In this document: in pieces, positions 5,276-31,520 of the stretch
Position numbering within the stretch: the first letter of the stretch is position 1
How the letters are laid out: each line of letters starts with the position of its first letter
Virus record (IMG/VR): IMGVR_UViG_3300032046_000135
Coordinates: 1 to 31,630 of that record
Strand: one strand, 5' to 3'
DNA length: 31,630 nucleotides
Source: a virus
Made by a program: the position numbers and the translations under genes
The notes under the pieces: model-generated
What the model saw: only the letters and a program-made list of their open reading frames with translations
The model's database searches: none
What the model was told of the DNA's origin: nothing

Positions 5276-5279
5276 TTAT

Positions 5280-10584: not shown

Positions 10585-10596
10585 GGAACGATTCAT

Positions 10597-12900: not shown

Positions 12901-15831
12901 GTGCTATTAAAGATTAAAGACAGGCTTGTATTTAAAGATGCAAAGAACTTATTTAATAAAACTTTGGTGAAATTTAATATTCGTAAGGATGGTGATGATG
13001 CTATTGTTGATAGTGTAGAATTTGAAGAGAAAGATAAAGATAATATAGTTAATAGAGAATATATAGATTCAATGGAACGTAAAACATCTGCTGGAGTTTT
13101 ATCAAGAGAAAAAGCATTGACCATTGGTTCTCCCAAAAATCTTTGGTATTTAGTTGGTGAAAATGATTATATATATATTCGCGAGAGCAGTGTAGAACGT
13201 TCTATAGATAATTACTTTAAGACATTAGCATTGATAAATGATAAGTCAGAACCTAATTTACCAGAGGGTGTTCGTAAGAGATTTGCTAGGGCAGTAGCTA
13301 GATATAATCTTCCTATACATTTGTTGTCTGGATTTGGCTTAAAAGAAGATAGTCAAGCTCACGCAGCATATATGATTAATAGTAATAAAATAGTCATAGT
13401 CCCTGAGTACTTTATTAGAATGGGTGTGGTTAGGGTTGGTGGACAGTATATAGATGAATTTTCTAAGACAACTGTTCATGAATTTGGGCATACGATTTGG
13501 CATCAGGTATTAGGTGATAAACAGAGATTGGGTTATGAACAATTAGCGCCTAATTTTTTAGATGAAACAGAACATCAGCAATTGTTGTTGACTGGTAGTA
13601 AAGAATCTGATTATACAAAGGGATATACTGATACATTAAGTGGCAAGCGTGTATTTGGTGAATATTGGACAGTAAAAGATGATAAGTTTCTATCTTCTTA
13701 TGCTAGGATGTCAATTAAAGAAGATTTTGCAGAAACATTTTTACATTATATACTTGCTCCAGATTTTCTTATGGGGTTTGATGAAGCAAGATATAATTTC
13801 TTTAAGAACTTGACAATACCATCAACCATTATTGAAAAGGGTGATTTAATAGTTGATGGTAAAAAAGAACCGGTTCAAATATCAGATCTTATTACTATAG
13901 ATCTTCAGACTTCTGAAATGCGACGTAAACTTGCATTGGAGTTTGAGTCTGCTCTTAGTAATATGATGGAATCATACAATATTGGACTTGAGCAAATTAA
14001 AAATGTAATTCCATATGGTGATTTTGTACAAATGGGGGAAAATATACCCGCTTCAATGAAGGTGGTTTCATATGTTACAAATGTGATTGGAGATAAGAAT
14101 TATATCGGTGGTAATGTTGATATTAGTTTATTAGATACACAGGAAAAAGTAGATGCTATTATTTATAATCAGCGCGTAAATGTTGAGGATACTAAACCAG
14201 AACAAGCAGATTCTAATGAAATGGCAGATTTTTATAATAAGTGTGATATGCTTGATGTTGAAGAGTTTGAAGATGAGGTTCGCATCAATAAGCGTTATTA
14301 TAAGAAGGATGAAATTGATCATTGGGTTACTACTCCGAGTGGCACTCATATCCCAATACCAAAGGAAGGCATGAAGGGTTATAGGAAAATCTTTCAGAAG
14401 CCATCTAAGGGTGGCAAAGCGTTAGTTGCCATAGCGCAAGGTAAAAAGCGTCCTCCGACCCAAAGAGAGGTCAAAGAGAGGGTCGGTAAATTACCATTAG
14501 GGCACGTAGAAACAAAAGCTGGCAAGTTGCCTAAGAATAAGAAGTTCACTTCTATGGTTTCGGAATATAGTGTGCAAAGACATTTTAGTGAGAAAGCGCC
14601 TGATCATCACGATCTTCGTCTTAAAATGGGGAATAAAGCATATTCATGGGCTGTTACTGTGTGGCCTAAGCCTGGAGAAAAGCAGTTAGCAGTTTTACAG
14701 CCAGCACATTCAGTTGAATATATGAAGTTCAAGGGTGTAATACCAAAGGGACAATACGGGGCTGGGCGCGTAGACCTTATAGATCACAATAAGGTTGATA
14801 TTACCGATTGGGATAAGAAGAAAATTGCTTTTAACGTGTATTCCGGCTCAAATAAGGGGCGTTATGCATTGATAGATATCGGGAATAAAAACTTCTTATT
14901 GGTACGTAAGACTAGAATTAGGAAATATCCTAACATTGAATATCATCCCGCTAAAGCAAGAGTTAAGTTTAGAGAAGAAATGTGGGATTCTATCGATTAT
15001 ACTCTTCAACCCGAAATGAAGGGTATTCGTTATCTTCTGTATGTGGGTGGTAATAATGGAAATCAGTTATTGAGTCGTTCCTTTTCAGAAGTTGATAAGG
15101 GACATCATGTTGACCATACAGATAATGTCCCACATCTTCGTGATTTAAAATTCGAACAAAAGGATTTGGTATTAGACGGGAAAATATATAGGGGTAATGA
15201 AGAAACCACCAGTTCTATTATGAATAGTAATCCGATGCGTTCTAGAGAGTTGCAAGCAAAACATGGTAAAGTCACATATTATGTATCTGATATCTTAAGA
15301 TACAAGGGCAATGATTTACGTAGTTTACCATACAAGATGCGTTTGAAGTTTCTTGAACGTGCTGTGGGTGGAAATAAATATCCTAATGTAAAGATTTTAC
15401 CATCATTTAATGATAACAAGAAAGCGCATTATAAAAAGCTCATCAGAATGGGGTTTGAGGGAGTTGCATTTAAGAATTTAAATGGGCCTTATGGCGATAG
15501 GTTTATGACTAAAGTTAGGCCAGTTCATAGTGGTGATTATGTTATAATGGGAGCAACTCCTGGCAAGGGTAAGTTTGAAGGAATGTTTGGGGCATTGATT
15601 TATGGCAAATACACCGACGGGAAACTTACCCAAGTTGGCAAAGTTAGTGGCGGGTTTAGCGAAAAAGAGCGTGTTGCTATTGATAAAAAACTCAAATCGT
15701 ATATTAAACAGAAAAAAGTAATTTCATTAAAACATTTACAGACAAAAGAAGGTAAGTTGGAAGATCCTGTATTTGCTGGTTTAAATGATAACAAAACATG
15801 GCATGATTTATTCGCTGTGGGTGAACCTTAA
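12901..15831 (+). CDS. HExxH metallopeptidase - LigD 3'-phosphoesterase - degenerate ligase fusion
   Basis: A 976-residue protein that starts at GTG 12901, nine bases after GGAGG and directly on the portal stop. Residues 193-197 are HEFGH, a zincin site; KEDFAETF at 273-280 probably gives the third ligand. HWVTTPSGTHIPIP at 474-487 is a linker type known from phage head-associated proteins. Residues about 553-675 match the 3'-phosphoesterase domain of DNA ligase D: QRHF (His561), HHDLRL (His569, Asp571, Arg573), AHSVEY (His603), GVIPKGQYGAG. Residues about 690-970 follow the ATP-dependent ligase layout, with SDILRYKGNDLRSLP, FEGVAFK and an OB-like end. However, motif I reads PEMKGIR (Glu705 at the catalytic Lys position) and motif III reads LDGKI. 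It is probably a packaged DNA-end or effector enzyme. Confidence 0.85.
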   Translation: MLLKIKDRLVFKDAKNLFNKTLVKFNIRKDGDDAIVDSVEFEEKDKDNIVNREYIDSMERKTSAGVLSREKALTIGSPKNLWYLVGENDYIYIRESSVERSIDNYFKTLALINDKSEPNLPEGVRKRFARAVARYNLPIHLLSGFGLKEDSQAHAAYMINSNKIVIVPEYFIRMGVVRVGGQYIDEFSKTTVHEFGHTIWHQVLGDKQRLGYEQLAPNFLDETEHQQLLLTGSKESDYTKGYTDTLSGKRVFGEYWTVKDDKFLSSYARMSIKEDFAETFLHYILAPDFLMGFDEARYNFFKNLTIPSTIIEKGDLIVDGKKEPVQISDLITIDLQTSEMRRKLALEFESALSNMMESYNIGLEQIKNVIPYGDFVQMGENIPASMKVVSYVTNVIGDKNYIGGNVDISLLDTQEKVDAIIYNQRVNVEDTKPEQADSNEMADFYNKCDMLDVEEFEDEVRINKRYYKKDEIDHWVTTPSGTHIPIPKEGMKGYRKIFQKPSKGGKALVAIAQGKKRPPTQREVKERVGKLPLGHVETKAGKLPKNKKFTSMVSEYSVQRHFSEKAPDHHDLRLKMGNKAYSWAVTVWPKPGEKQLAVLQPAHSVEYMKFKGVIPKGQYGAGRVDLIDHNKVDITDWDKKKIAFNVYSGSNKGRYALIDIGNKNFLLVRKTRIRKYPNIEYHPAKARVKFREEMWDSIDYTLQPEMKGIRYLLYVGGNNGNQLLSRSFSEVDKGHHVDHTDNVPHLRDLKFEQKDLVLDGKIYRGNEETTSSIMNSNPMRSRELQAKHGKVTYYVSDILRYKGNDLRSLPYKMRLKFLERAVGGNKYPNVKILPSFNDNKKAHYKKLIRMGFEGVAFKNLNGPYGDRFMTKVRPVHSGDYVIMGATPGKGKFEGMFGALIYGKYTDGKLTQVGKVSGGFSEKERVAIDKKLKSYIKQKKVISLKHLQTKEGKLEDPVFAGLNDNKTWHDLFAVGEP

Positions 15832-16103: not shown

Positions 16104-16113
16104 GAGATTGGCA

Positions 16114-17811
16114 ATGCTGAATGGTTTGAATGGTTTCGTTGCTATTAGTAAAGTTGACGATGATAAACGAATGGTGTATGGCATTGCCAATAGTGATACA
16201 TTAGATTGCCAAGATGAGATTGTAGAATGGGAAGCAACTAAACAAGCTATCCCCGAGTTCTGTAAATGGCGCAATCTTCGTGAAATGCACGGGGATACCG
16301 CTGCTGGTACGGTCCCAGAGCTCGAGGTCGATGATGTTTCCAAAAAGCTTAACATAGGGGCTAAGGTAGTAGACGATTCTGCATGGAAGAAAGTGAAGGA
16401 AGGGGTATATAAGGGATTTAGTATAGGGGGCAAGGCATTAGAGCGCATCAAAGAATTTGATACTGCGTTAGGCAAGAATATAAGTCGTGTTAAGAAATAC
16501 GTTCTGAATGAAATTTCATTAGTTGATAGACCAGCTAATCCTGATTGTGTATTTACTATGATGAAGAGAGCAGACAGTGATGTACCTAGTCAAAAAGATC
16601 CTTTATCTAAAGATCTTTCTATAATGCGAAAGATAGTTAGTGATTTAGATAATAAGGTTTTAACTGATGATCAGATTGCTAAATTAAATGATAATGAATT
16701 TGCACTTGTTAAGAAAAATGGGGATGATAAAGAACGGTTGTATCCGATACCTGATAAGGCTCATTCAATGGCATTAATGAAGCAATTGATGGGTTTAAAA
16801 GTAACAGATGGGGAGAGGCATATAATTCATGAAAAAATTAAGAAAAGTCTTGGGAACAAACACAGTGTATATAATTGTACTTACTGTCAGGCATTCATGT
16901 CTTCTTTAATCCACAAAGGGGGTGATCAAGTAATGGATAGGCAGAAATTGTTACAAGCTCAGGCGCTTATTGAGGAGCTCTTAGCTGAAGAAGGTGGTGG
17001 TGAGGAAGAGACTCAGCAACCACCTGTTGCCGCCCCTGGTGCTGAAATGGGGGCTGCTGGCGAAGAGGGAGAGTTCGAAGGTCAGGAGGGCGAGGATGTT
17101 GGCCCGGAGACCGAGAACATCGTTGATGCTCCTCAAAAGGATGAGACCGAGGACGTCGATAACCTACAGGGTTCTGACTACTCTGATAAGGAGGGTTCGG
17201 ACGCTGAGGGTTTCGATGATCAGACTCTCGACTACAGTGAAGGGCTTGAGGACGATGAAAATCGTACTCACCTTTATGACACTGAAAGTGAGAGAGGCGA
17301 GAAGGCCGAGATGGAGGGGGGCGATTGCCCGTATTGCGGGTCGACCGTCAAAGCTCTCATGTCTGGCCGCTTCCGTAAGGGAGTCGCCACTTGCCCCGGT
17401 TGCCATACCGAGTATGGAGTCAATGCGAAGCCGAAGGTGCTGATTACCAAGAGGGGCGGTCCTCGTCCCATGCGTAAGTCGGCCGCTGGCTCGCTTGATT
17501 CTCGAGTGATTGACGTTCTTGGTAACTTAGCCAAGGCTGTCAAATCGCTTGATGCCCGCATGACCAGGACAGAGGCTCGTCCTCTTCAGCGGAAGAACCT
17601 CATGAAGCGTGGTGAGGGTGCTACTGAAGTTGAGGGTGATGTTACTAAGGTAGCAGAGAAGCCCGCCGCTCTGAAGGCGGATGAGGATAAGGCTTTGGCG
17701 ATCGTTAAAGCCGCTCAGGGAGCGGGTCGTCAGCTGACTCCTGAGGAACGGGCGTTCACGAGTTCGGTCAGCGATAGGCTGATTGACTTCAAGATTGGCA
17801 AGGTTAGCTAA
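16114..17811 (+). CDS. Head maturation protease with C-terminal scaffold-like region
   Basis: The start is ATG 16114, seven bases after GGAG; an upstream TTG at 16108 is too close to the SD. The product has 565 residues. Residues 1-160 match phage prohead serine proteases of the XkdF type: REMHGDTAAG gives His59, YKGFSIGGKAL gives Ser103, and LNEISLVDRPANPDC is the usual closing motif. It cleaves scaffold and capsid proteins during procapsid maturation. Residues 160-273 are linker. From 274 on the chain is scaffold-like: a very acidic stretch (about 290-400), a zinc ribbon (CPYC 405-408, CPGC 427-430) and basic helices. A strong internal SD before Met274 suggests a separate product. Base composition turns more GC-rich in this second half. 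Confidence 0.85.
   Translation: MLNGLNGFVAISKVDDDKRMVYGIANSDTLDCQDEIVEWEATKQAIPEFCKWRNLREMHGDTAAGTVPELEVDDVSKKLNIGAKVVDDSAWKKVKEGVYKGFSIGGKALERIKEFDTALGKNISRVKKYVLNEISLVDRPANPDCVFTMMKRADSDVPSQKDPLSKDLSIMRKIVSDLDNKVLTDDQIAKLNDNEFALVKKNGDDKERLYPIPDKAHSMALMKQLMGLKVTDGERHIIHEKIKKSLGNKHSVYNCTYCQAFMSSLIHKGGDQVMDRQKLLQAQALIEELLAEEGGGEEETQQPPVAAPGAEMGAAGEEGEFEGQEGEDVGPETENIVDAPQKDETEDVDNLQGSDYSDKEGSDAEGFDDQTLDYSEGLEDDENRTHLYDTESERGEKAEMEGGDCPYCGSTVKALMSGRFRKGVATCPGCHTEYGVNAKPKVLITKRGGPRPMRKSAAGSLDSRVIDVLGNLAKAVKSLDARMTRTEARPLQRKNLMKRGEGATEVEGDVTKVAEKPAALKADEDKALAIVKAAQGAGRQLTPEERAFTSSVSDRLIDFKIGKVS
16916..16927 (+). promoter_or_regulatory. Internal Shine-Dalgarno site for a second start at 16933
   Basis: AAGGGGGTGATC matches the full anti-SD complement (AAGGAGGTGATC) with one A-to-G change that still pairs by wobble. 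The GGGGG core ends 10 bases before an in-frame ATG at 16933. This is one of the best SD matches in the window, and it lies inside an open gene. Confidence 0.65.
16933..17811 (+). CDS. Putative scaffold protein from internal start in protease gene
   Basis: Translation from Met274 of the protease frame would give a 292-residue protein beginning MDRQKLLQAQALIEELLAEE. It would have an acidic middle, a zinc ribbon and a basic helical end (LDARMTRTEARPLQRK). Scaffolds are typically acidic, helical and end in a basic capsid-binding helix. Nested scaffolds sharing the protease C-terminus are known from lambda (C/Nu3). Evidence here is the strong SD, the frame, the composition change and the position just before the capsid gene. 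It may be made in addition to the full-length protease. Confidence 0.6.
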   Translation: MDRQKLLQAQALIEELLAEEGGGEEETQQPPVAAPGAEMGAAGEEGEFEGQEGEDVGPETENIVDAPQKDETEDVDNLQGSDYSDKEGSDAEGFDDQTLDYSEGLEDDENRTHLYDTESERGEKAEMEGGDCPYCGSTVKALMSGRFRKGVATCPGCHTEYGVNAKPKVLITKRGGPRPMRKSAAGSLDSRVIDVLGNLAKAVKSLDARMTRTEARPLQRKNLMKRGEGATEVEGDVTKVAEKPAALKADEDKALAIVKAAQGAGRQLTPEERAFTSSVSDRLIDFKIGKVS

Positions 17812-17877: not shown

Positions 17878-18906
17878 GTGCCTCCTTCTAGTATGGACCT
17901 GAGAACTTCATTCCTGGGTAGCGCGATGGAAGTTGATCAGGCGATTGATAGGATTTCGAAGGCTATCTCGGCTACGAACGTCAGCAACTTACTGCTTGTC
18001 CGCGAGGATTTGCAGAATGAGTTGGCGATCAATTGCCCGATAGATACTCCGCTCCGCAACCGTCTGACGCGCATCCCCGGTAATGGTTCCGCCCATGCGT
18101 GGTATCGGGCTCAACCCACCATTCAGACTGAGGGTCGTTTCCTGGGAACTGGTCCAGCGAACGGCTTCTTCGCTCGTGGTGGTATCCCGGTTGCCACTCA
18201 GGTTGCATATCAGTATATGAGCGCTCCGTATGTGAGTCTCGGCGATATTGTTGAGGTGACTCTCTTCGATCAGATGGCAGGACGTACCTACACTGATGTG
18301 AAGAAGCTTCAGCTCAAGATGAAGATGATTAACGTCGCCCTGATGGAGGAGTGGTGCATTATTAATGGTAATAGTGTTGCCAATCCTCTTCAGTTCGACG
18401 GGCTTAATCAGATCATCACCACCAATATTACCGATCTTGCTGGCGGACCTTACACCCTGACTGCTGTTACTACGACCATGAGGAATATCGCCACTCTCGG
18501 TGGTAAGCCTCAGGCTCTGGTTCACAGTTATAGGGAGCATCAGAAGTTCAGTGAGCTTGTGATGGCTTCTTATTACAGGTTGTTCCAACAGGGTGCTGGC
18601 GCTCTGGCTGATATCCCGGCGGGTGTTGCTGTGACCCGGTGGGTGAGTCCGTTTGGGACAGTTGACATTATTGGTAGCAGATTTATTCAGCCACTGTCTG
18701 GCTATACTTCGAACTTCGCACTTATCTTAGACGATAAGTCGATGACGGAGGATGGCAACGCAGTCGGTATGGTTGATCTGATGCCGATTAGTGCAATTGA
18801 TCTTGCTTTACTACAGACGGCTTACCGCACTCTGGTTGCTGAGTTTACGGTGATGATGGTGACAATCGAAGCCTTCCAGGGCAAGATTATCAACATTGGG
18901 CCGTAA
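17878..18906 (+). CDS. Major capsid protein
   Basis: A 342-residue protein. The GTG start follows AAGAAGGTGAT, a good SD. Its position straight after protease/scaffold, its size and its layout (an N-terminal helical arm, TPLRNRLTRIPGNGSAHAWY near 60, then a mixed alpha/beta core) fit an HK97-fold coat protein. GRFLGTGPANGFFARGG could be the flexible E-loop region. The C-terminal strand MVTIEAFQGKIINIG fits the end of such proteins. Hundreds of copies would form the shell. Codon use is visibly more GC-rich and uniform than in most neighbours, as expected for the most expressed gene. A strong terminator follows. Confidence 0.85.
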   Translation: MPPSSMDLRTSFLGSAMEVDQAIDRISKAISATNVSNLLLVREDLQNELAINCPIDTPLRNRLTRIPGNGSAHAWYRAQPTIQTEGRFLGTGPANGFFARGGIPVATQVAYQYMSAPYVSLGDIVEVTLFDQMAGRTYTDVKKLQLKMKMINVALMEEWCIINGNSVANPLQFDGLNQIITTNITDLAGGPYTLTAVTTTMRNIATLGGKPQALVHSYREHQKFSELVMASYYRLFQQGAGALADIPAGVAVTRWVSPFGTVDIIGSRFIQPLSGYTSNFALILDDKSMTEDGNAVGMVDLMPISAIDLALLQTAYRTLVAEFTVMMVTIEAFQGKIINIGP

Positions 18907-18931
18907 CCTTAGTAATTAGATAATAGAACTT

Positions 18932-18966
18932 ATGGGAGCTGGCTGAGGCTGGCTCCCATATTTTTT
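18932..18966 (+). terminator. Rho-independent terminator after capsid gene
   Basis: ATGGGAGCTGGC pairs with GCTGGCTCCCAT around a TGAG loop, giving a 12-bp stem with two wobbles, followed by ATTTTTTC. It separates the capsid operon from the glycan cassette. Confidence 0.9.
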
Positions 18967-18978
18967 CTTGTAATGATG

Positions 18979-18987
18979 TGGTATAAT
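18979..18987 (+). promoter_or_regulatory. Extended -10 promoter of glycan cassette
   Basis: TGGTATAAT is a perfect extended -10 element (TGnTATAAT). It lies just after the terminator and 20 bases before the ATG at 19008. No clear -35 box is visible, which is usual for extended -10 promoters. TATAATACA recurs at 6359-6367. Confidence 0.7.
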
Positions 18988-19007
18988 ACAATAAAGGGAG
19001 ATTTTAA

Positions 19008-20042
19008 ATGAAAATCAAGGCAAGGTTTGAACATGGTTCAGTGTTATTGAACTCTCAGGAATATTATGTTAATGATTGGACTTTAGATGTTCCAGAAGGT
19101 ATTGGTAAATTTTTACTCTCAAGAGGTGAATATACAATAAAGTTAAAGAAAGAGTGTAGTTTACAAAATTCCAAGAACCTGCTCTTTATAAGGGGGTCTG
19201 GTCTTGGCGATGTTATGATGTGTACTGCGGTAGTTAGATATATAAAGGAAAAGATAAATAAGAATGTTAATATAGACTGGTTGTGTGGTAGTGGAGAATA
19301 TTCAGAGGTTCTTGAAGGAAATAAATATATAAGAAAGGTTTATGATATAAAAACAATTCCTAATGATATTGATACGATGTACGATTATATGGCTTCTATC
19401 GATATGGCAGAATTTATTGGAAATAATTCTCACTATCACCATAGGATAGATTTATTTGCTCGTATGCTGCCAGAATTAAAATCTGTTGTAATTGAAGATA
19501 AACATTTAGATTATTTTATAAGAAAAGAAGAGATAGATTGGGTAGAGTCTTTAAAACTTAGAATTCCTTATATAACGTTAACATATAAGACAAGTGCTAC
19601 CAATAGAATGCTATCTAATGAAATGAACATAGAAATATGTAAAAAGATATTAGATGCTGGGATTGGTGTAGCACTTGCTGATAAAGATGTTATTCAATTT
19701 GATAAGCGAGCAATGACTCTTAGTGGGATGAGTATAAGACAAAAGGTAGCGATCATACATGGTGCTGCTGCCGTTCTTACACCAGACACTGGGATATTTC
19801 ATATTGCTTCCGCATTAGATAAGCCGATAGTTACCTATTTCGGGGCTATTAACCCTAAATTGAGAATTTCTTCTGATAATGTGCATGTTTTGATAAACCC
19901 AGTTCCATGTTTTCCATGTGATGTATATACTTGTAGTCTTGGCCGCCCGATGTGCGTTCAAGGGATAAAAGTCGATGATATAGTAAATAAGGTAGTTAGT
20001 TTGGTGGGGGTTGGGGTTAAAAATAGTTCTACGACGGTCTAA
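19008..20042 (+). CDS. GT9 (heptosyltransferase-like) glycosyltransferase
   Basis: A 344-residue protein with AAGGGAG upstream. Residues 1-50 form a separate short module (FEHGSVLLNSQEYYV... GIGKFLLSRGEY) also found in the next gene. From about 58 on it follows glycosyltransferase family 9: FIRGSGLGDVMMCTAVV is the N-terminal glycine-rich loop, and LTPDTGIFHIASALDKP (about 257-275) is the C-terminal nucleotide-sugar site with Asp-Thr-Gly. A later Cys-rich stretch (PCFPCDVYTCSLGRPMC) matches family members that end in CxxC-like loops. GT9 enzymes add heptose or related sugars to LPS cores; here the acceptor may be host glycan or a virion protein. Confidence 0.85.
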   Translation: MKIKARFEHGSVLLNSQEYYVNDWTLDVPEGIGKFLLSRGEYTIKLKKECSLQNSKNLLFIRGSGLGDVMMCTAVVRYIKEKINKNVNIDWLCGSGEYSEVLEGNKYIRKVYDIKTIPNDIDTMYDYMASIDMAEFIGNNSHYHHRIDLFARMLPELKSVVIEDKHLDYFIRKEEIDWVESLKLRIPYITLTYKTSATNRMLSNEMNIEICKKILDAGIGVALADKDVIQFDKRAMTLSGMSIRQKVAIIHGAAAVLTPDTGIFHIASALDKPIVTYFGAINPKLRISSDNVHVLINPVPCFPCDVYTCSLGRPMCVQGIKVDDIVNKVVSLVGVGVKNSSTTV

Positions 20043-20053
20043 AGGGGTATCAA

Positions 20054-21034
20054 ATGGTAGTAATTGGGCCTTTTGAACACGGTTCTTTACTTATTAATGG
20101 TAGAGAGATATATTTTCAAAATGGAAGAGCATCCGTTTCAGATGAAATTGGTAATGAGTTGATAAAACGTCCAGGGTATAGAAAAGTAGAAAATAAACTT
20201 CAAATTAAACAAGAACAAAAACCAATACGGATTGAACGCACTGGCGTAGAAAATCGTGTTATAAAACCATCTGATATTAAACCAGTAACTTTGATGAGAT
20301 ATAGAGATGATATAGATGTTAGTATTATAATCCCAACATATAATAGATTAGAGGATATAAAGAATTGTGTTGCTTCAATATATGATAATACAAAAGCAAT
20401 TACTTATGAAATCATAATAGTGGACGGAACTGGTGTCGCTGCTGAGTATTTTTCAGATCACACCCCTATTGTTTATTTAAAAGATACAGAAAATCTTGGA
20501 GCTACTCATGCATTTAATTTTGGGTTTATGAATGCTATGGGAAAATGGACAGTATGGCTTAATGATGATACAATTGTAACTAAAGATTGGTTGAAAATTG
20601 CTTTAGAGTTCATGGATAAAAATCCAGGAGTTGGGCTAGGTGCTTTCTTTTTTAGAGAACAAGATGAGAATGGAAAATATGTTGTATTTCCGGAGAATGT
20701 AATATATGATGGGGAATATTGTGTGAGAACATTTGCGTCGTGGACTATTCATTCAACTAGAGTATATGCTAATTTTGGGATATTAAAAACATCATTAATG
20801 AAAAAACTGAATTATTTTAATGAAAGGGCATTTAAGTGTTATGCCTCTGATACAGATTTTTCTCATAGAGTTATTAAGAATGGGTTAGATATTAAACCTA
20901 TATTCGGGGCAAAAGTTATACATTTAAATAGACAAGATGAAAATAGAAAGAAAAATGTTTTTGCAGATTTTCAAAAAGATACTATAAATACTTGGCATAA
21001 ATATCACTCTATGTGGGGTGTAAAAGGAATATAA
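20054..21034 (+). CDS. GT2 glycosyltransferase with N-terminal shared module
   Basis: A 326-residue protein. Residues 1-48 (GPFEHGSLLINGREIYF, then SDEIGNELIKRPGY) repeat the module at the start of the GT9 gene. The GT-A domain begins near 94 with VSIIIPTYNRLEDIKNCV. It continues with ENLGATHAFNFGF, then LNDDT at 169-173 as the DxD-type metal and nucleotide site, and DTDFSHRVIKNG near 275, which supplies the catalytic-base region. It transfers a sugar from a nucleotide donor; donor and acceptor cannot be read from sequence. It starts 11 bases after the GT9 gene and ends one base before the next start codon, so the cassette is co-translated. Confidence 0.85.
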   Translation: MVVIGPFEHGSLLINGREIYFQNGRASVSDEIGNELIKRPGYRKVENKLQIKQEQKPIRIERTGVENRVIKPSDIKPVTLMRYRDDIDVSIIIPTYNRLEDIKNCVASIYDNTKAITYEIIIVDGTGVAAEYFSDHTPIVYLKDTENLGATHAFNFGFMNAMGKWTVWLNDDTIVTKDWLKIALEFMDKNPGVGLGAFFFREQDENGKYVVFPENVIYDGEYCVRTFASWTIHSTRVYANFGILKTSLMKKLNYFNERAFKCYASDTDFSHRVIKNGLDIKPIFGAKVIHLNRQDENRKKNVFADFQKDTINTWHKYHSMWGVKGI

Positions 21035-21035
21035 A

Positions 21036-23033
21036 ATGAGCCCTAAAGTCGATTTTGGTATGATTGTACTAAATGGTGACGATTTTGTTGATTTAGTTAT
21101 AAGAAATGTTTATGATATAGCAAATAAGATCATTATTATTGAAGGTGCCGTTAAAACGGCGGATAAAAATATAAAGCATTATGGGAAGTGTACCTCTTGT
21201 GATGAGAAAGGTTTATCAACAGATAATACTAGAGAAAAGATTTTATCTGTGCCAGATCCTCTCAATAAAATTATTTATAATAGAGTCGGATGGGTTGAAG
21301 ATAAAGTTAAATTATCACAATTATATTTAGATCAATCTGATGCAGATTATATGTGGCAATTAGATAGTGATGAAATGTATGAACAGTGGGTTATGAAAGA
21401 TGTTATAGAATATCTTGAAACTAATAAGGATATAAATACAGTGTCTTTCCCGGTATGGCATTTTATTGGTGATTTAAAACATATTGGGTCTGGTAAAAAT
21501 TCTCCTTGGGATTTTATTCCATTTAGAAGGATACATAGATTTAAGAAAGGTTCTAAATGGACCCATCATGAACCCCCTTGTATGACATGGCCTGGTGAAA
21601 AAAAGCTTGTTTGTGATATGGGGAAGAATTTAGACAAAGAATATTGTGCTTCTAGAGGTTGGTATATGTATCATTATTCTTTTGTTACTAGAAAACAAGC
21701 TGTTGAAAAAATGGATAATTTTTATCATCGTATATATAAACCCAATTGGGTTGGTAGGATATTTGACAATATTTTTAATGAAGATGTAGTGAAAAAATAT
21801 GGTTCTCATTCATGGGATGAAACTATATTATATAATAAGTTTGTGGAACGTAAGGGGGGTATTGAAAAGTTTTTAAGACAACATCCTACCATTATGAAAG
21901 AACACCCCTTATTTATAAAAGATTATCCTAAAAATAAAAATGGATCTAAACAATTAGATGTAATACATATGATAAGTTTATGGTGTGGTGGGGGCGGGTG
22001 TAGATCTCCTTATCTTTTGGCAAGTATTAATAATGATAATTTTGGGTGTGTACATGAATTTATAATACTTTCTTCTATTGGGCCTGATGAAGATTTTGCT
22101 GGCCGAAGTATATATACTCCTATGAATTGTGATAAAAGTAATTGTTGTGATAATGATTTTAATAATAATGCAATTGTTGAGTATGTAAAGCGTCGTAATC
22201 CAGATATAATACACGTGAACTGGTGGGCTCAAGATGCACATAGATATAGAAAAATTAGAAGTAAATTATTAGAGTATCCATTTGTAATGACTATACACAG
22301 TCACCCATATGAGGGGGGTCCATATAAATTTAGACGAGAAGATTCTGAATGTTATGATGCTGTTATGCTTGCGTCTGAAAAGACGTTAGAATTGCAATCT
22401 ATAAAGGATTTTCAGAAATCTGGTAAAAAGGTATATGTCGTGCATAGTCCAGTAAATAAGTGGAAATTTGAAAATGTAGTAAGATCTCCTCATTTTGGTT
22501 TTAATGTAGTATTATACGGATATAAGTGTAGTGGGAGATATAGGAGTAATATGTTTGAAACATGTAAAAAGATTATTGATAAATATAAGGATGTATGCAT
22601 TAATTTCATAGGTCTTAGCGATAAAGATAGTGAATATGGTTCTGCTGCAAGACAATACAATAATGATAGAATGGTATATCTTGGTTTTATTGATGTTATG
22701 GATTTATTGCCAGCTATGGATTTGAATTTGCATATATTGCCAGATATAGGTTGTTCAACTTGTGAAGTATTTGTTCAAGAATGTGCATTGTTTAGGATTC
22801 CCACATTAAGAATAGGTGGTTATAATAGCGTGACTGATGACTTACCTGGAATAAACGTTACTGATGAAAATCAGTTATTGGAGCAATTTGATAAGATTTA
22901 TAATGATGCTGAATATAGAGAAAAAGAAATTCAAAAAGCATATGATAAGGTTATAGAATGTTTTGACCCTAAGAAGTCTGCCTTTGAACAAAGAAAAGTA
23001 TATTTAGAAACTATAGAAAGATTTAAGAAGTGA
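21036..23033 (+). CDS. Two-domain glycosyltransferase (GT-A plus GT-B)
   Basis: A 665-residue fusion. The first 300 residues are a GT-A domain: FGMIVLNGDDFVDLVI at the start, and QLDSDEMYEQW with the DxD at 110-112. From about 306 a second enzyme begins (DVIHMISLWCGGGGCRSPYL) with the order of GT-B glycosyltransferases of the GT4 kind: NPDIIHVNWW, FVMTIHSHPYEGGPY, KVYVVHSPVN, then YLGFIDVMDLLPAMDLNLH. It ends with CEVFVQECALFRIPTLRIG, matching the conserved E(x)7E region in outline. One chain could thus add two sugars in sequence. It starts at the stop of the GT2 gene and overlaps the methyltransferase gene by 4 nt. Confidence 0.8.
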   Translation: MSPKVDFGMIVLNGDDFVDLVIRNVYDIANKIIIIEGAVKTADKNIKHYGKCTSCDEKGLSTDNTREKILSVPDPLNKIIYNRVGWVEDKVKLSQLYLDQSDADYMWQLDSDEMYEQWVMKDVIEYLETNKDINTVSFPVWHFIGDLKHIGSGKNSPWDFIPFRRIHRFKKGSKWTHHEPPCMTWPGEKKLVCDMGKNLDKEYCASRGWYMYHYSFVTRKQAVEKMDNFYHRIYKPNWVGRIFDNIFNEDVVKKYGSHSWDETILYNKFVERKGGIEKFLRQHPTIMKEHPLFIKDYPKNKNGSKQLDVIHMISLWCGGGGCRSPYLLASINNDNFGCVHEFIILSSIGPDEDFAGRSIYTPMNCDKSNCCDNDFNNNAIVEYVKRRNPDIIHVNWWAQDAHRYRKIRSKLLEYPFVMTIHSHPYEGGPYKFRREDSECYDAVMLASEKTLELQSIKDFQKSGKKVYVVHSPVNKWKFENVVRSPHFGFNVVLYGYKCSGRYRSNMFETCKKIIDKYKDVCINFIGLSDKDSEYGSAARQYNNDRMVYLGFIDVMDLLPAMDLNLHILPDIGCSTCEVFVQECALFRIPTLRIGGYNSVTDDLPGINVTDENQLLEQFDKIYNDAEYREKEIQKAYDKVIECFDPKKSAFEQRKVYLETIERFKK

Positions 23034-23626
23034 TAAAACTTCACCTTGGTTGTGGTACGGTGTATCTCGGGGGGTATATTAACGTAGACGCTCCAGAGAC
23101 AGCGTTTAGGGGCACTAGATTTGCCATTAGACGCGCAATTAAGCGCAATGCCACTACTTTGGCTAATTATTACAAACGACATTTTAACATGGTCAGGGGA
23201 GGATCAGATTTACCAAGAGTTGCAGATATGTATTTTGATATTAGGTATTTATCTAAGCATTTTGCATATAATTCAGTAGATAAAATTTTAGCATATCAAG
23301 TATTGGAACATTTTAAACAACATGAATTTGAAATGATTATGAGGGATTGGTATAAATGTCTTAAGAAAGGAGGAATTCTTCGGGTAGATGTGCCTGATAT
23401 TTTAGCTACGTTGAAGATTATAATTGAAACAGAAAATTATGTTGATCGGGATTTTGTGCTGAGACTTGTGTATGGAAGTGGAAGAAATGATTATTGTATT
23501 CATTATAATGGATTTTATCCTGAAAAACTTTCGTTAATATTGAGAAATATAGGATATAAGAAAATAACACCATTGATAAAGAATATTCATAGTTATCCTG
23601 CATTTGGATTAATCTGTGTTAAGTAA
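23030..23626 (+). CDS. SAM-dependent methyltransferase (COG4627-type)
   Basis: A 198-residue protein starting at a GTG that overlaps the preceding stop. LHLGCGTVYLGGYINVDA at 4-21 is a standard SAM-binding first strand and loop of this group. ADMYFDIRYL, AYQVLEHFK and CLKKGGILRVDVPDI follow in the usual order, and the last strand is GLICVK. It would methylate a small molecule or sugar; methylation of terminal sugars fits its place as last gene of the glycosyltransferase cassette. It is paralogous in layout to the 5280-5807 gene but keeps an intact SAM loop. Confidence 0.8.
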   Translation: MIKLHLGCGTVYLGGYINVDAPETAFRGTRFAIRRAIKRNATTLANYYKRHFNMVRGGSDLPRVADMYFDIRYLSKHFAYNSVDKILAYQVLEHFKQHEFEMIMRDWYKCLKKGGILRVDVPDILATLKIIIETENYVDRDFVLRLVYGSGRNDYCIHYNGFYPEKLSLILRNIGYKKITPLIKNIHSYPAFGLICVK

Positions 23627-23630
23627 AATT

Positions 23631-23666
23631 CAGATAAAAAATCTGAGTGTAACTATGTGGTTACAC
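23631..23666 (+). repeat. Two adjacent hairpins upstream of 23692 gene
   Basis: CAGAT-AAAAA-ATCTG (23631-23645) is followed by GTGTAAC-TATGTG-GTTACAC (23647-23666), a perfect 7-bp stem. No T-run follows. They fill the gap after the glycan cassette and may act as an mRNA end stabiliser, a weak terminator or a 5' leader structure for the next gene. Confidence 0.55.
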
Positions 23667-23691
23667 CAAGTATTCGGGACTGGAGGGTTAA

Positions 23692-24147
23692 ATGGCTACA
23701 ATAGGATCTAGGAAGGTTACTTCTGTTGTTGTCCCACCTAATGCAACTGAGGATGGTAAAGAGTTACTGGTTGAGTTTCAGAATGGTTTGGCTAAAGTTC
23801 CTAAGAAAGTTAAGAAATTTCTTCTTGAAAGAAGTCCAGAACTTTATTTTGATCCTAAAGTAAGTGATGGCGCTTCTGGTACTAAATTTACTGATGATTA
23901 TACAGCAATAGAATATTACATAGCTAAGATCAAACATAGCGGTTCTGCTCCTAAACTTTGTTCGTTATTAAAAGGTCATTATGAGTCTCTTCAAGGTGAA
24001 TTGATGAGTGGTAAGTATAATGTAAAGACTGAGGAAAAACCGAAGAAACCAAAGGTTGTTGAAGAAGCAGAAGAATCAGATGATGACGATGAAGTTTTAG
24101 CTACTGGTGCTGGCGATAAGATTAAGTCTAAGAAGAATAAGGATTAG
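23692..24147 (+). CDS. Small neck-region protein with shared N-terminal module, unknown
   Basis: A 151-residue protein with GGAGG upstream. The first 55 residues (GKELLVEFQNGLAKVPKKV, then KKFLLERSPELYF) resemble the short module at the start of the GT9 and GT2 proteins and the 55-residue protein at 31353. The middle is helical, and the C-terminus is a highly charged tail with alternating acidic and lysine runs (AEESDDDDEV). Small proteins of this kind are frequent after capsid genes in phages, but their roles are poorly known. It stands at the head of the neck gene cluster. Confidence 0.7.
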   Translation: MATIGSRKVTSVVVPPNATEDGKELLVEFQNGLAKVPKKVKKFLLERSPELYFDPKVSDGASGTKFTDDYTAIEYYIAKIKHSGSAPKLCSLLKGHYESLQGELMSGKYNVKTEEKPKKPKVVEEAEESDDDDEVLATGAGDKIKSKKNKD

Positions 24148-24156
24148 TTGGGGGGA

Positions 24157-24233
24157 TAGAACGGTGGAGGAAACTAAAAATAGTGATTCTGCTTTTGCTG
24201 TCCCGACAAAAGTAGATGGCCTCCACCGTTCTA
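24157..24233 (+). repeat. Long perfect inverted repeat, nested hairpin
   Basis: TAGAACGGTGGAGG (24157-24170) and CCTCCACCGTTCTA (24220-24233) form a perfect 14-bp stem. Inside it TCTGCTTTTG and CAAAAGTAGA form a second stem of about 10 bp with one wobble around a 9-base loop. A short T-run (ACTTTTA) follows. It may be a terminator, an RNA processing site or a structured regulatory RNA between two neck genes. The stop of the upstream gene is 9 bases before the stem. Confidence 0.75.
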
Positions 24234-24241
24234 ACTTTTAA
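24164..24241 (+). CDS. Possible 25-residue peptide within the inverted repeat
   Basis: A GTG at 24164, eight bases after a GGGGGG run, opens a 25-codon frame ending at TAA 24239-24241 (starts VEETKNSDSAFAVPTKV by codon). The start and the end of the frame both lie in the stem arms, so translation and folding would compete. There is no homology evidence; chance is quite possible. Confidence 0.2.
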   Translation: MEETKNSDSAFAVPTKVDGLHRSNF

Positions 24242-24255
24242 AAAGGAGAAGTAAA

Positions 24256-24465: not shown

Positions 24466-25506
24466 ATGGGTTCTGAACTTATATTTACAAGAAGCGAAAT
24501 AGCAAAATTGTATGCTACTTTCGCATATGGCGGTGTCCCATTAGACCCAATTACCTTGAGAGTCGCCATATATTTTGGGACTACATTGGTTCTCGGCCCA
24601 ACACCAATGACTAAAATATCTACTGGATATTATTATTATCAATTTACAGTTCCGGTTAATTGGGTAGAAGATAGATATAGTGCTGTATATACTGGATTTA
24701 TTAATGGTATTCCATTTAAGCAAGAGGAAACGTTTAAGATAGTAGCATCAGAAACTATATCTTCTAGTGCTGTACCGACTGGTCATTATTGCGTTATAGG
24801 TGATGTTGAAGAGGAACTTAGTGGCGTATTTTATAATGATCTTCCCAATTGGGGTACATATGTTGCTAATTTGATCGTTGATACAGACCATATAGTTGAT
24901 AGGCGTTGCAATAGGACATTTAAACAAGTCAGGAAAATGGATTATATAAGTGGTACTGGTCTGGCTAAAATGTATATTCCGAATTATCCAATTAACGCAG
25001 TTCATAAATGTGAGTTGTTAATTGTCCCTTCGGTAAAATGGTATACATTTGCAAGAATTGCCCTGATAAATGTATATCTTAATAATGGTGTAGCTATAGC
25101 TACACAATCATCTGAAGTAGATTTTGCTGCTTGTGATTTGATAGTTAGCTGCGTAGATGGAATAATGACTATCCCTGAGCGTGTTCAGTATATAGGACAG
25201 TCTGCATTCCCGTTCTGGAATTACACCTTTATAGAGGGAAATAGCAACATTAGAGTTGATTATACTTATGGCTTCACAGCTTTAACTAGACCCTTTGATG
25301 TTAAGAGGCTTGCTGCTAAGTTAGTGGCAAGACAGATATTACTACGAAAAGGTGACCAGATATCTGGTGGTTCTGTTAGTACAACCATGGATGGTGTTGG
25401 TCAGAATTATGATGGTGTCCCGTTTGGTTCTAGAATAAAAGATTTAGATGGTGAGATAGAAGAGATTGTTAGGCGGTATCGTCGTATTGGTTTGGATGCC
25501 GCGTAA
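24466..25506 (+). CDS. Head-tail connector (gp6-like) with N-terminal Ig-like domain
   Basis: A 346-residue protein. Residues 1-95 are beta-rich (VPLDPITLRVAIYF, STGYYYYQFTVP, GFINGIPFKQEETFKIV) and resemble an Ig-like or BppU-like domain. Residues about 105-340 fit the head-tail connector family that binds under the portal: VANLIVDTDHIVDRRCNRTF, YPINAVHKCELLI, IRVDYTYGFTALTRPFDV, then KRLAAKLVARQILLRKGD and a C-terminal helix (GEIEEIVRRYRR). The DYTYGF motif followed by a helical bundle is typical. The added N-terminal domain would be exposed at the neck. The SD is GGGAG. Confidence 0.7.
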   Translation: MGSELIFTRSEIAKLYATFAYGGVPLDPITLRVAIYFGTTLVLGPTPMTKISTGYYYYQFTVPVNWVEDRYSAVYTGFINGIPFKQEETFKIVASETISSSAVPTGHYCVIGDVEEELSGVFYNDLPNWGTYVANLIVDTDHIVDRRCNRTFKQVRKMDYISGTGLAKMYIPNYPINAVHKCELLIVPSVKWYTFARIALINVYLNNGVAIATQSSEVDFAACDLIVSCVDGIMTIPERVQYIGQSAFPFWNYTFIEGNSNIRVDYTYGFTALTRPFDVKRLAAKLVARQILLRKGDQISGGSVSTTMDGVGQNYDGVPFGSRIKDLDGEIEEIVRRYRRIGLDAA

Positions 25507-26517: not shown

Positions 26518-26568
26518 ATGGCTCTCTTCGACATTCAGCGTGACGTGCGGACCGGGCAAGAGGATTGA
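26518..26568 (+). CDS. Possible 16-residue leader peptide or gene remnant
   Basis: An ATG with a good SD (GAAGGAG) opens a 16-codon frame (MALFDIQRDVRTGQED) ending at TGA, two bases before the GTG of the next gene. It sits exactly at the AT-rich to GC-rich switch. It could couple translation into the island or be the cut-off start of a replaced gene. Confidence 0.3.
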   Translation: MALFDIQRDVRTGQED

Positions 26569-26570
26569 CC

Positions 26571-26921
26571 GTGGCTCTAGTGCGATACGAAACCCTCCGC
26601 GACCGCAAGACCGGCGAGTTGCTTGATGCACGTTGTGCGGCCGATGTTGCGCAGCGCCCCTTCGGTGGTCTGGACAAGACCACCTATGTCCACGCGGTTG
26701 AGAATCTGGACCCCGACGCGGTGCGCAAGGCGCTCGGCCTCAAACCGCTATGGGACGAAAGCGGCATCGCTGCTGACGCGGCTGCATCCAATATGCGCGC
26801 GGAACTCATGGCTGCTGGCCTCTCGGCCGCTGACGTGACGCTGATTTCGACTGGCAAGGTCGGGGTTGCCGAGATGAAGGCGCTGCTCGCCAAAGCCGCG
26901 CCGGTTGCGAAGGAACTCTGA
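26571..26921 (+). CDS. Unknown protein in GC-rich island
   Basis: The GTG at 26571 is preferred to the TTG at 26565 because the next gene begins in the same way (TGACCGTGGC at both junctions). The product has 116 residues. It is alanine-rich with VALVRYETLRDRKTGELLD at the start and a helical end (ALLAKAAPVAKEL). No family is recognised. Codon use is strongly GC-rich and matches only the following gene and the 3841-4612 block. It is likely co-translated with the beta-helix gene and may be its small partner or chaperone; that is inference. Confidence 0.6.
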   Translation: MALVRYETLRDRKTGELLDARCAADVAQRPFGGLDKTTYVHAVENLDPDAVRKALGLKPLWDESGIAADAAASNMRAELMAAGLSAADVTLISTGKVGVAEMKALLAKAAPVAKEL

Positions 26922-26923
26922 CC

Positions 26924-28306
26924 GTGGCCGCTAACGATTACATCGCCGCCTACCCGCCCGTCTGCGCCACGTCTGACCGGGGCGACGGCAAGATGCGCAT
27001 CACCTGGCCGGCGTGGGGCCTGGACGAAGTGCTCCACGCCGCGCTGACCACGAGCCACTACGTTGCCAACGTAACGCTAGGCACTCCCGAGAGCAAGGCG
27101 ATTTTGGCCACGGGTGGCACAAAGTCGGGCGGCTTCTGGATTGACATCGACGAAACTTTCTCTGGCAGTTCCTGGCTCAACACTCACCGCTACAGCCCGC
27201 AACGGCAAAGCACGGTCTACTACTACACGAGCTTTAACCTTGCCCGCGCGGCGATGATAACCGCCGCCAACCATGACAACATGATTCTGTGGGACTTCAA
27301 CACCGCAGGCACCATGATGGGCACGGGCGTAGTCGTGAGCGCCGGGACTGCCGTCGATATCTCCGGCTGGGGCGGCCGCGCCAATCAGCAGAACGGCGTG
27401 GTTGTCACGACCAACATCAACTTCTACCAGTTCAAAGGCGACCTCTCGGCCCACACGTTGATGACGTGGCAGAATCTGGCTTTCAGTGGCGGCTATTATT
27501 TCTGGTATTGGAACGCGACTTCCGGCATGGCCGGCGGTGGCCTGACCGTCTCTCGCTGCGTATTCAACCGCCCCGATCAGTATCTATTCTACGACGGGTC
27601 GAGCGTCACCCTGGCACCTCCCATCACCTTTTCCAACTGCTACGCCGACCTTGCCGGCACAGGCTGGAATGCCGGGACGTGCAGCGGCGCGCTGACGGTC
27701 CAGCACTGCACGTTCATCAACGGCCTCAGCGGGATCGTGAACAACTCTAAAACCGGCACCTACGTCAACAACCTGGGCATCGACCAGAGTTCGGCCTGCT
27801 ACCAGAGCACGACCAACGCGACATTTACGAAGTGCGCCTCCACGGACGCGACCGGCAGCGAAGCGGGTCTGCGCTCTCTGACCCGCGCACAACTCGCGCT
27901 CTGGTCGCTCAACGATGGCGGCAACAATGCCACCGACGCGGGCATTCTGGCGACGAGTACCTGCTATCAGGCAGGGGCGAACACGACCGAGACTATCGAC
28001 CTAAAAGGCAACGCCCGTCACTCCACCACCCCGAGCCTCGGGTGCTACGAGGGCAGCACCAACGCCCTTGGCGTGACGTGGCCGACCGGCGCGCAGAGCA
28101 CGGTCAACTTCACCAACTTCGCCGGGGCGGTCACCGGCACGGCGGTTGCCGAGGCACACGCGAACAGCGATGTGCGCTTCGGCGTCGGCTCCGGCACTTG
28201 CAAGGTGCCGGTCAAGGCAGACGTGCGGCTGGGCACGGCGGTAGATGTGGCCGACATTGGAGAATTGCCAACAAATAAAGCTAAAATATCATCTGTGAGA
28301 GGATAG
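26924..28306 (+). CDS. Beta-helix surface protein (tail-spike-like), mostly GC-rich
   Basis: A 460-residue protein starting at GTG. Residues about 90-380 show the turn-strand rhythm of right-handed parallel beta-helices, with repeated Asn/Thr/Cys-rich strands (LTVSRCVFNRPDQYLFY, ITFSNCYADL, LTVQHCTFINGLSGI, CYEGSTNALGV). Such proteins serve as receptor-binding or glycan-binding virion spikes. The end carries two copies of a short motif (SDVRFGVGSGTCKVP and KADVRLGTAVDVADIG) common in phage surface proteins. The DNA is GC-rich until about 28258; the last 16 codons are AT-rich, marking a recombination joint near the 3' end. No enzymatic motif is visible. Confidence 0.65.
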   Translation: MAANDYIAAYPPVCATSDRGDGKMRITWPAWGLDEVLHAALTTSHYVANVTLGTPESKAILATGGTKSGGFWIDIDETFSGSSWLNTHRYSPQRQSTVYYYTSFNLARAAMITAANHDNMILWDFNTAGTMMGTGVVVSAGTAVDISGWGGRANQQNGVVVTTNINFYQFKGDLSAHTLMTWQNLAFSGGYYFWYWNATSGMAGGGLTVSRCVFNRPDQYLFYDGSSVTLAPPITFSNCYADLAGTGWNAGTCSGALTVQHCTFINGLSGIVNNSKTGTYVNNLGIDQSSACYQSTTNATFTKCASTDATGSEAGLRSLTRAQLALWSLNDGGNNATDAGILATSTCYQAGANTTETIDLKGNARHSTTPSLGCYEGSTNALGVTWPTGAQSTVNFTNFAGAVTGTAVAEAHANSDVRFGVGSGTCKVPVKADVRLGTAVDVADIGELPTNKAKISSVRG

Positions 28307-28310
28307 TGGT

Positions 28311-29702
28311 ATGGAACAAATAAAATTAGGCAAAACCATTAAACGAAAATTTTATATAACGAATCAAAACAATAACTTAGTTAATGTTGATACTCCCCCA
28401 GGAGCAACTGGATTATTATATAGAGAAGATGCAGATTCTGGTGCAGTAGTTTCTATATCTGCCATAACTACTGGAGTATATGGTGCATCTGTTGGAATAT
28501 TGGGTGTTAATGGATTTATTAAGGATTCTATTGGTGAATTAGAAATAGCTGCAACAGTTAGTGGTATACTGGTTAAAAATTCAATATGGGCTGGGATAGT
28601 TGAAAGTTCTGATGTTGATGATCTTCCTAATATTAGTGCTTTGGGCACAGGTGTTTGGGGATTCACTGGAATACGTAGTCTTAGTGATAAGGTTGGATTT
28701 GGAGTGACAGGTATTCCTGTTCTTGCTGATAACGTTACTGGAATATGGGGCGCTCCAAGTAGAACACTTACTGATAAGGCAGGATATTCAACGACTGGAT
28801 TACCCTCAATTAGTGATGTTGCCACAGGAGTTTGGGGATATGGTGGCGGAAGAGCATTAACTGATAAGACTGTATTCGGTGTTACGGGCATACCCGTTCT
28901 TGCAGATATGGTCACGGGAATCTGGGGAGCACCGAGTCGCACACTTACTGACAAAGTTGGATATTCTACTACTGGCATATCCATACCGTCTTTAGGCGAT
29001 ATCGCTACAGGTGTTTGGGGATTCACTGGAATACGTAGTCTTAGTGATAAGGTAAACTTCGGTGTTACAGGTGTAAGTGTTAATCTTGGCGATATCGCTA
29101 CGGGCGTTTGGGGGTATACGGGTATAAGATCATTATCAGATAAAGTTGGGTTTGGAGTGACGGGCATTCCTGTTCTTGCAGATGTAGTTACAGGTATATG
29201 GGGAGCACCTAGCCGCACTCTTACTGATAAGGCTGGTTATTCTACAACTGGGATATCTATACCATCTTTGGGCGATATCGCTACGGGTGTTTGGGGATTC
29301 ACCGGAATACGCAGTCTTAATGATAAAGTTGGGTTTGGTGTGACGGGCATTCCAGTTTTAGCTGATAATGTTACGGGTATCTGGGGTGCCCCGAGTCGTA
29401 CACTCACTGGTAAGACAGGGTTTGGAGTTACCGGATTACCGAATTTAGCAGATATCGCTACAGGAGTTTGGGGATATACTGGTATAAGATCGTTATATAA
29501 TGATAATGTGACTAGATTGGTTAAGAATAAGCAGGTTTGGGAATATGTCGGTGGTGTTTATACTGGGACTGTCTATTTACGTAATGATGGTGATACTGCT
29601 AATATATTAAAGACAATTGCTAGAGACCCAACTACAGGGGCGATTATAACAGACCCCAATTACACCGGACCTATGAACTTCGATGCTTGGAGTACTCCAT
29701 AA
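28311..29702 (+). CDS. Repeat-rich tail/neck protein (ten 29-31-residue repeats)
   Basis: A 463-residue protein. Residues 1-100 form a beta-rich Ig-like domain similar in layout to the connector N-terminus. From about 106 to 400 ten repeats of 29-31 residues follow, of two alternating types: one around TGVWGFTGIRSLSDKVGF, the other around TGIWGAPSRTLTDKAGYS. Each includes a TG.WG turn and an R(S/T)L(S/T)DK loop. Residues 405-463 form a separate C-terminal domain. A fibrous or decorative virion part is likely. A 47-bp stretch is identical at 28647-28693 and 29007-29053, showing recent duplication or conversion among repeats. The stop overlaps the next ATG by 1 nt. Confidence 0.75.
   Translation: MEQIKLGKTIKRKFYITNQNNNLVNVDTPPGATGLLYREDADSGAVVSISAITTGVYGASVGILGVNGFIKDSIGELEIAATVSGILVKNSIWAGIVESSDVDDLPNISALGTGVWGFTGIRSLSDKVGFGVTGIPVLADNVTGIWGAPSRTLTDKAGYSTTGLPSISDVATGVWGYGGGRALTDKTVFGVTGIPVLADMVTGIWGAPSRTLTDKVGYSTTGISIPSLGDIATGVWGFTGIRSLSDKVNFGVTGVSVNLGDIATGVWGYTGIRSLSDKVGFGVTGIPVLADVVTGIWGAPSRTLTDKAGYSTTGISIPSLGDIATGVWGFTGIRSLNDKVGFGVTGIPVLADNVTGIWGAPSRTLTGKTGFGVTGLPNLADIATGVWGYTGIRSLYNDNVTRLVKNKQVWEYVGGVYTGTVYLRNDGDTANILKTIARDPTTGAIITDPNYTGPMNFDAWSTP
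28647..29053 (+). repeat. Direct 47-bp DNA repeat (28647-28693 and 29007-29053)
   Basis: The two copies, 360 bp apart, are identical from ACAGGTGTTTGGGGATTC to the final GATAAGGT. They encode repeat units 1 and 5 of the protein. Other units of the same protein type use different synonymous codons, so these two share a recent history. Confidence 0.8.
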
Positions 29703-31352: not shown

Positions 31353-31520
31353 ATGAGAGTAAAGTACATCGGGAATCATAAAGAGGTTAGTAATATTCAT
31401 GGTGTTTTTAAGAAAGATGAAGAAAAAGAAGTAAAAGATGAAATTGGAAATATCTTAATAAGATGTAAAAAGGAATTTGTAATGGTTGGGGAAAAACTGA
31501 CCCCCAATAAGGAGAAGTAA
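31353..31520 (+). CDS. 55-residue protein with shared short module
   Basis: A short complete frame with AAGGAG upstream of the ATG and its own stop at 31518-31520. It reads MRVKYIGNHKEVSNIHG and then KEVKDEIGNILIRCKKEF. The second part matches the SDEIGNELIKRPGY segment at the start of the GT2 protein and the GIGKFLLSRGEY segment of the GT9 protein. Such one-domain proteins are common between neck and tail genes, usually without known function. The SD of the following gene overlaps its last codons. Confidence 0.65.
   Translation: MRVKYIGNHKEVSNIHGVFKKDEEKEVKDEIGNILIRCKKEFVMVGEKLTPNKEK

Follow-up and report, generated by a model that had tools for sequence, protein, structure and literature searches.

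Do four glycan-type genes set between the capsid gene and the neck genes of a virus form an independently expressed cargo, or do they belong to the late operon in which they lie, and on what would their products act? The question is raised by IMG/VR record IMGVR_UViG_3300032046_000135, a 31,630-base piece of an uncultured virus genome with a mean G+C of 0.40 that was analyzed over its whole length (the window). Behind its major capsid gene, genes for a GT9-type glycosyltransferase (GT), a GT2-type GT, a GT-A/GT-B fusion GT and an S-adenosylmethionine (SAM)-dependent methyltransferase follow one another (Table 1). A first-pass annotation of this DNA had read them as a self-contained, independently expressed cargo operon (moron). 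In our analysis, that interpretation is partly supported: the locus appears as a set of accessory glycan genes lying within a late operon and falls short of a demonstrated moron. Moreover, two of its enzymes share an N-terminal module that the first-pass annotation had overlooked, although the glycan-type gene content that it described is borne out. What is new in the locus, and of greatest interest, is this shared module, which is known from two sequences of one genome.

A module shared by two glycosyltransferases

The GT9 and GT2 proteins begin with homologous sequences. Aligned over their first 42 residues, they reach a score of 75, a value attained by none of 2000 shuffles, the best of which scored 55. 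The two copies are 35% identical overall, with the FEHGS, L.N, E.Y and IG positions retained, and both precede the catalytic fold, the Pfam match of GT2 beginning at residue 90 and the fold of GT9 being judged by eye to start around residue 57. Modeled alone from the two sequences with AlphaFold2, the module yields a predicted local distance difference test (pLDDT) score of 91.4, with strands at residues 2-4, 9-14, 17-22 and 25-27 and a helix at residues 30-37; full-length GT2, modeled from one sequence, reaches a pLDDT of 34, and it is only as the isolated module that this region is well modeled.

The predicted structure was compared with 350,542 PDB chains using Foldseek, which placed a chain annotated as a DNA replication protein first (E-value, E, of 0.19) and Bacillus subtilis YqbF (2hjq) second (E 0.58; template modeling score, TM, of 0.56). 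YqbF had been set down as a candidate ahead of this search; presumably, it is encoded between the capsid and connector genes of the B. subtilis skin prophage. In BFVD, small phage proteins headed the structural matches, with a probability of 1.00 and a best E of 0.0033. When 1335 open reading frames (ORFs) from 16 loci were searched with a profile built from both modules, the next in rank were Tsac_2858 of THSA-485A, which is encoded directly 3′ of a capsid gene (E 0.013), then the product of the window's own small gene behind the cassette, at 23692-24147 (E 0.015; hhalign P 0.00066), and an ORF of 55 residues close to the window's end, at 31353-31520 (E 0.028), after which the next best E was 5.1. 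In its predicted fold, the module resembles YqbF and the small phage proteins of the DUF7302/phrog_748 type, from which it differs in being fused to GTs and in a sequence score below the family cut-off. None of these observations is strong by itself, but in combination they mark the module as a likely member of a YqbF/DUF7302-like group of small head-region proteins.

The module resembles a protein whose gene usually stands next behind the promoter, and both the GT9 and the GT2 gene start with it; this could also reflect a recombination scar. Cargo inserted behind the start of the gene that follows the capsid gene (capsid+1) would have left a translated leader without any docking role, and the enzymes would still modify glycans of the virion or host. 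We consider this unlikely, as the retention of the FEHGS, L.N, E.Y and IG positions at 35% overall identity suggests selection, and the module is predicted as a complete and confident fold.

No other GT bearing the module was found in the searches made (phage records, IMG/VR and GTDB scans). Searches by tblastn with the fusion protein and the GT2 module against 50,697 phage records gave nothing useful, an artificial DUF7302-like consensus gave nothing by the same method, and the module sequence had no significant match among PDB sequences. Used one at a time as queries against IMG/VR, the fusion, capsid, portal and protease proteins recovered no relatives. Several candidates were rejected: the GT9 of megaphage LR756511 (24% identity) has an N-terminus without the module; the one bacterial glycan locus returned by the GTDB scan lacks the module too; a strict DNA pattern for FEHGS..N gave two chance matches outside real genes; and the same pattern with a loose serine codon gave at least 120 matches, of which those listed are, by reading, all an unrelated terminase motif, QGRFEHGRIVLN. 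Separately, in terminase locus L044, the ORF continues past HDDL into CFIANTQISTP (393 amino acids in total), which looks like an intein or a similar insertion.

Punctuation behind the capsid gene

The gap between the capsid and GT9 genes holds the two elements on which the claim of independent expression was founded, and both stand as sequence features. The intrinsic terminator, whose stem-loop is followed by TTTTTTCTTG, folds with its flanks at -24.6 kcal/mol (z = -5.15), equalled by none of 200 shuffles. The extended -10 element, TGTGGTATAAT, has no -35 hexamer at the usual spacing. Its short form, TG.TATAAT, is not rare across the window (three on the plus strand against 2.4 expected), while the longer form, TGTG.TATAAT, occurs once against 0.14 expected; by our own arithmetic, the chance of the short form falling within the 47 nucleotides (nt) between terminator and start codon is about 0.004. 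Another strong terminator-like hairpin of 14 pairs lies elsewhere in the window, at 2683-2715, 3′ of the gene at 526-2643.

At the other end of the cassette, the plus strand at 23627-23691 contains two small hairpins only and no T-run terminator 3′ of the methyltransferase gene. As no intrinsic terminator closes the cassette, transcription from a promoter at its head would continue through the genes of the neck and tail, and this promoter is probably shared by the cassette and the neck genes.

To compare this boundary with that of phages lacking the cassette, as the first-pass annotation had proposed, relatives were found through similarity of the maturation protease and share the portal-protease-capsid-neck order. 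The protease is homologous to those of Annadreamy, Francesca, Karimac and THSA-485A, and the portal protein also to those of the first three; the capsid protein has a sequence match only in THSA-485A, its equivalence with those of the Streptomyces phages being taken from position and annotation. The Stanwilliamsviridae phages Annadreamy, Comrade, Wakanda, Karimac and Mildred21, the similar HangryHippo, and the Rhodococcus phages Francesca and Weasels2 resemble the window in the order portal, protease, capsid, small gene, adaptor, and in a hairpin in the post-capsid gap. In the six Streptomyces phages, the strong hairpin is followed by TGCTATAAT, TGATATAAT, TGTTATAAT or TGCTACAAT, and in Weasels2 by TGGTAAAAT; only Francesca lacks an extended -10-like element, so that the hairpin is found in eight relatives and the element in seven. 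These counts are not of independent events, given the kinship among the phages (Annadreamy, Comrade and Wakanda form one subfamily). Unlike the window, none of these eight admittedly distant relatives has an annotated GT at that place. The pair was not seen in THSA-485A, Mufasa8 or Charlie, and is thus a trait of part of the phage group. The portal relative Thermus phage phiYS40 has no GT annotation near its portal gene and is uninformative. The most parsimonious reading of these sequences is that the capsid/neck boundary was inherited and that the cargo was inserted behind its terminator/promoter pair.

A moron operon, expressed separately from its own promoter and terminator and modifying host lipopolysaccharide (LPS) or O-antigen, would accommodate the terminator and extended -10 element upstream of the cassette, the lack of the cassette genes in relatives, and the resemblance of GT9 to LPS heptosyltransferases. 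However, the relatives carry the same terminator and promoter-like element without the cargo, no terminator follows the cassette, none of its proteins is a membrane protein of the GtrB/GtrA type, and its composition appears to be near that of other late genes. The claim of a self-contained, independently expressed operon is therefore unsupported, and we regard this explanation as quite improbable.

The region does seem to accept accessory genes, since Comrade (locus L138, 8786-10668) and Wakanda (locus L136, 8812-10918) carry other cargo one gene further on, where LtfC-like, lectin-like and collagen-like genes separate the capsid+1 gene from that of the adaptor, the lectin-like match scoring under its cut-off.

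Gene content of the cassette and its parallels

The position of the cassette between the capsid gene and the neck genes, as first annotated, is correct, with an SU10-type capsid protein (PF17236) upstream and a phrog_442 adaptor downstream. The tight spacing is likewise confirmed, with 11 nt between the GT9 and GT2 genes, 1 nt between GT2 and fusion, and a 4-nt overlap between fusion and methyltransferase. The families assigned to the four products hold with one reservation. GT9 clears its Pfam cut-off (44.5 against 22 bits) and matches heptosyltransferases in the PDB at E of about 5e-4. GT2 clears its own (80.1 against 23.3 bits), matches 6p61 at 1e-7 and carries NDD and DTDF, acidic metal-binding motifs; on inspection, both GT2 and the methyltransferase seem to have intact catalytic motifs. 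The halves of the fusion protein, in contrast, fall just under the curated cut-offs (GT-A half, PF00535, E 0.0011, 19.4 against 23.3 bits; GT-B half, PF13439, E 8e-6, 26.4 against 28.5 bits), and its family assignment is weak, the sequence suggesting a likeness to GT2 and GT4 only.

Table 1. Features of the cassette and its surroundings in the window
Feature	Position	Strand	Remarks
XkdF/S78-type head maturation protease	16108..17811	+	PF14550 6.3e-9; phrog_9427 2.6e-21; synteny anchor
Major capsid protein, SU10 type	17878..18906	+	PF17236 SU10_MCP 1.4e-13; phrog_752 4.1e-10
Intrinsic terminator 3′ of capsid gene	18931..18960	+	13-bp stem, 7 G-C pairs, 4-nt loop, T6 tail
Extended -10 element	18977..18987	+	predicted start ~18994
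GT9-type GT with N-terminal module	19008..20042	+	PF01075 1.5e-11, residues 238-312
N-terminal module of GT9	19008..19133	+	residues 1-42; homologous to GT2 module
GT2-type GT with N-terminal module	20054..21034	+	PF00535 2.5e-22, residues 90-211
N-terminal module of GT2	20054..20188	+	residues 1-45; four short strands and a helix predicted
GT-A/GT-B fusion GT	21036..23033	+	putative GT-A at residues 1 to ~300 (DSD motif), GT-B/GT4-like at ~310-665
Class I SAM-dependent methyltransferase	23030..23626	+	PF08241 1.3e-5, above cut-off; GTG start inside fusion gene end; GCG motif
Small protein in capsid+1 position of relatives	23692..24147	+	N-terminal stretch like GT module; charged tail
Head-tail adaptor, first recognized neck gene	24466..25506	+	phrog_442 9.9e-8

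The G+C content at third codon positions is 0.18-0.26 in the cassette, compared with 0.21-0.30 in most of the late genes that follow it; it is the capsid genes that stand apart, and the codon usage of the cassette is nearer that of other late genes than capsid-gene codon usage is. No membrane segment is present in any of the four proteins (maximum 19-residue hydropathy of 1.0-1.5), which speaks against Gtr-type, lipid-linked O-antigen conversion. None of them corresponds to the membrane-bound GtrB or the flippase GtrA of the GtrABC serotype-conversion system, and host LPS, which the first-pass annotation had offered as a possible target, is accordingly not favored.

Glycosylation of virions by phage-encoded GTs is established for the capsid and tail-tube proteins of mycobacteriophages (PMC12363180; PMC12619734), and virion glycosylation is described for Che8, Corndog and Myrna (Freeman et al. 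2023, as cited in PMC12363180 and PMC12619734). As there, the window encodes GTs in a phage genome; the acceptors in mycobacteriophages are virion proteins, the presumed acceptors here too, and the window differs in having GT9, GT2, a double GT and a methyltransferase set between capsid and neck, two of them with a head-protein-like module. Among the phage collection, tblastn with GT9, GT2 and the fusion protein gave no mycobacteriophage match. A parallel is offered by L141 (IMG/VR contig IMGVR_UViG_3300032516_000161), a contig unrelated to the window that was chosen for GT2 similarity only. At 9098-13086, it carries a 934-codon GT4-GT2-GT2 fusion frame, one more gene and the gene of a SAM methyltransferase, beginning 10 nt after a capsid-like gene and preceding an adaptor-like gene, both labels being a reading of size, order and sequence with no library confirmation. 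Like the window, L141 places a GT fusion and a SAM methyltransferase directly 3′ of a capsid-like gene; unlike the window, its domains follow the order GT4-GT2-GT2, it has no N-terminal module, and its 10-nt gap contains no terminator.

Other features of the window

Upstream of the portal gene, at 4454-6346, genes for a sulfotransferase-like protein, a second SAM methyltransferase-like protein and a deoxynucleotide monophosphate (dNMP) kinase stand in a row; the first two, at 4454-5807, show that genes for glycan tailoring also occur outside the cassette. Between the portal and protease genes, 12901-15831 encodes a protein of 976 residues in which a metallopeptidase-like stretch is combined with LigD 3′-phosphoesterase and ATP-dependent DNA ligase domains. 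The intergenic RNA at 24148-24255 has a perfect 14-bp stem (TAGAACGGTGGAGG / CCTCCACCGTTCTA) around two hairpins (-40.3 kcal/mol; z -5.5); Rfam gave no match at gathering score, this RNA included. G+C-rich islands rise above the record mean at 26565-28306 (0.62-0.63), which encodes a 460-residue protein without a family match, and at 3710-4400 (0.54-0.58). The protein encoded at 28311-29702, with many repeat copies like DKVGFGVTGIPVLADVVTGIWG, is likely a fiber or spike.

Proposed function and acceptor

Starting from the observed gene content, punctuation, conservation of that punctuation without the cargo, homology of the two modules and predicted fold, we infer transcription, docking and acceptor as follows. 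The capsid gene and the capsid+1 gene would have been separated by the insertion of four genes, 3′ of the pair that normally marks the capsid/neck boundary. The terminator would end most capsid-gene transcripts, and transcription would start afresh at the promoter, to cover the cassette as well as the neck and tail genes. The soluble GT9, GT2 and double GT would build a short glycan, which the methyltransferase would modify. The most likely acceptor would be a virion protein, the capsid protein first; virion proteins appear to be the best-fitting target, because the enzymes are predicted to be soluble, are encoded with capsid and neck genes, and in two cases carry a head-protein-like module. 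As the particle is assembled, that module would probably dock GT9 and GT2 either to some component of the head or to one another. Taken as a whole, this reading, in which late accessory genes behind the boundary pair encode soluble enzymes for glycosylating and methylating the virion, on which the head-protein-like module may dock them, has in our estimate a probability of about 0.5. Its most specific form, in which the phage has fused a YqbF-like head-module domain to two GTs so that they travel with the capsid, or attach to it, while it is being built and decorated by them, a virion glycosylation assembly line with a structural-protein module as its tether, is more doubtful, and we put it forward tentatively.

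Several observations weigh against this proposal. The hhalign comparison of the module with the Streptomyces capsid+1 domain is marginal (P 0.0089); its DUF7302 score in Pfam is 15.3 bits against a cut-off of 24.9, so that formal membership fails; its E-values in the PDB structure search are 0.2-0.6; and the fusion protein and the methyltransferase have no module. Docking of the module on the head is a guess from location.

In addition, the dNMP kinase gene (5804-6346) leaves room for DNA modification, in which the GTs would place sugars on modified bases of the phage genome, like the phage DNA GTs; modification of DNA is a known activity of some virus-encoded GTs (Pyle et al. 2024, as cited in PMC12619734). 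Nevertheless, the cassette adjoins the capsid genes, no base-modifying synthase was recognized in the window, the GT9 and GT2 families are typical of protein, lipid or LPS glycans, and the N-terminal module resembles small proteins of the phage structural region. Hypermodification of DNA is, on this balance, a poor candidate for the role of the cassette.

Implications

The locus corrects a common inference: a terminator and promoter before inserted genes need not signify an independent moron, as such a pair can belong to the capsid/neck boundary. If the proposed function is right, phage GTs would find virion proteins by means of a docking module held in common with head proteins, and this module would provide a testable sequence tag to predict which phage GTs are directed at the virion, as opposed to those acting on DNA or on the host surface.

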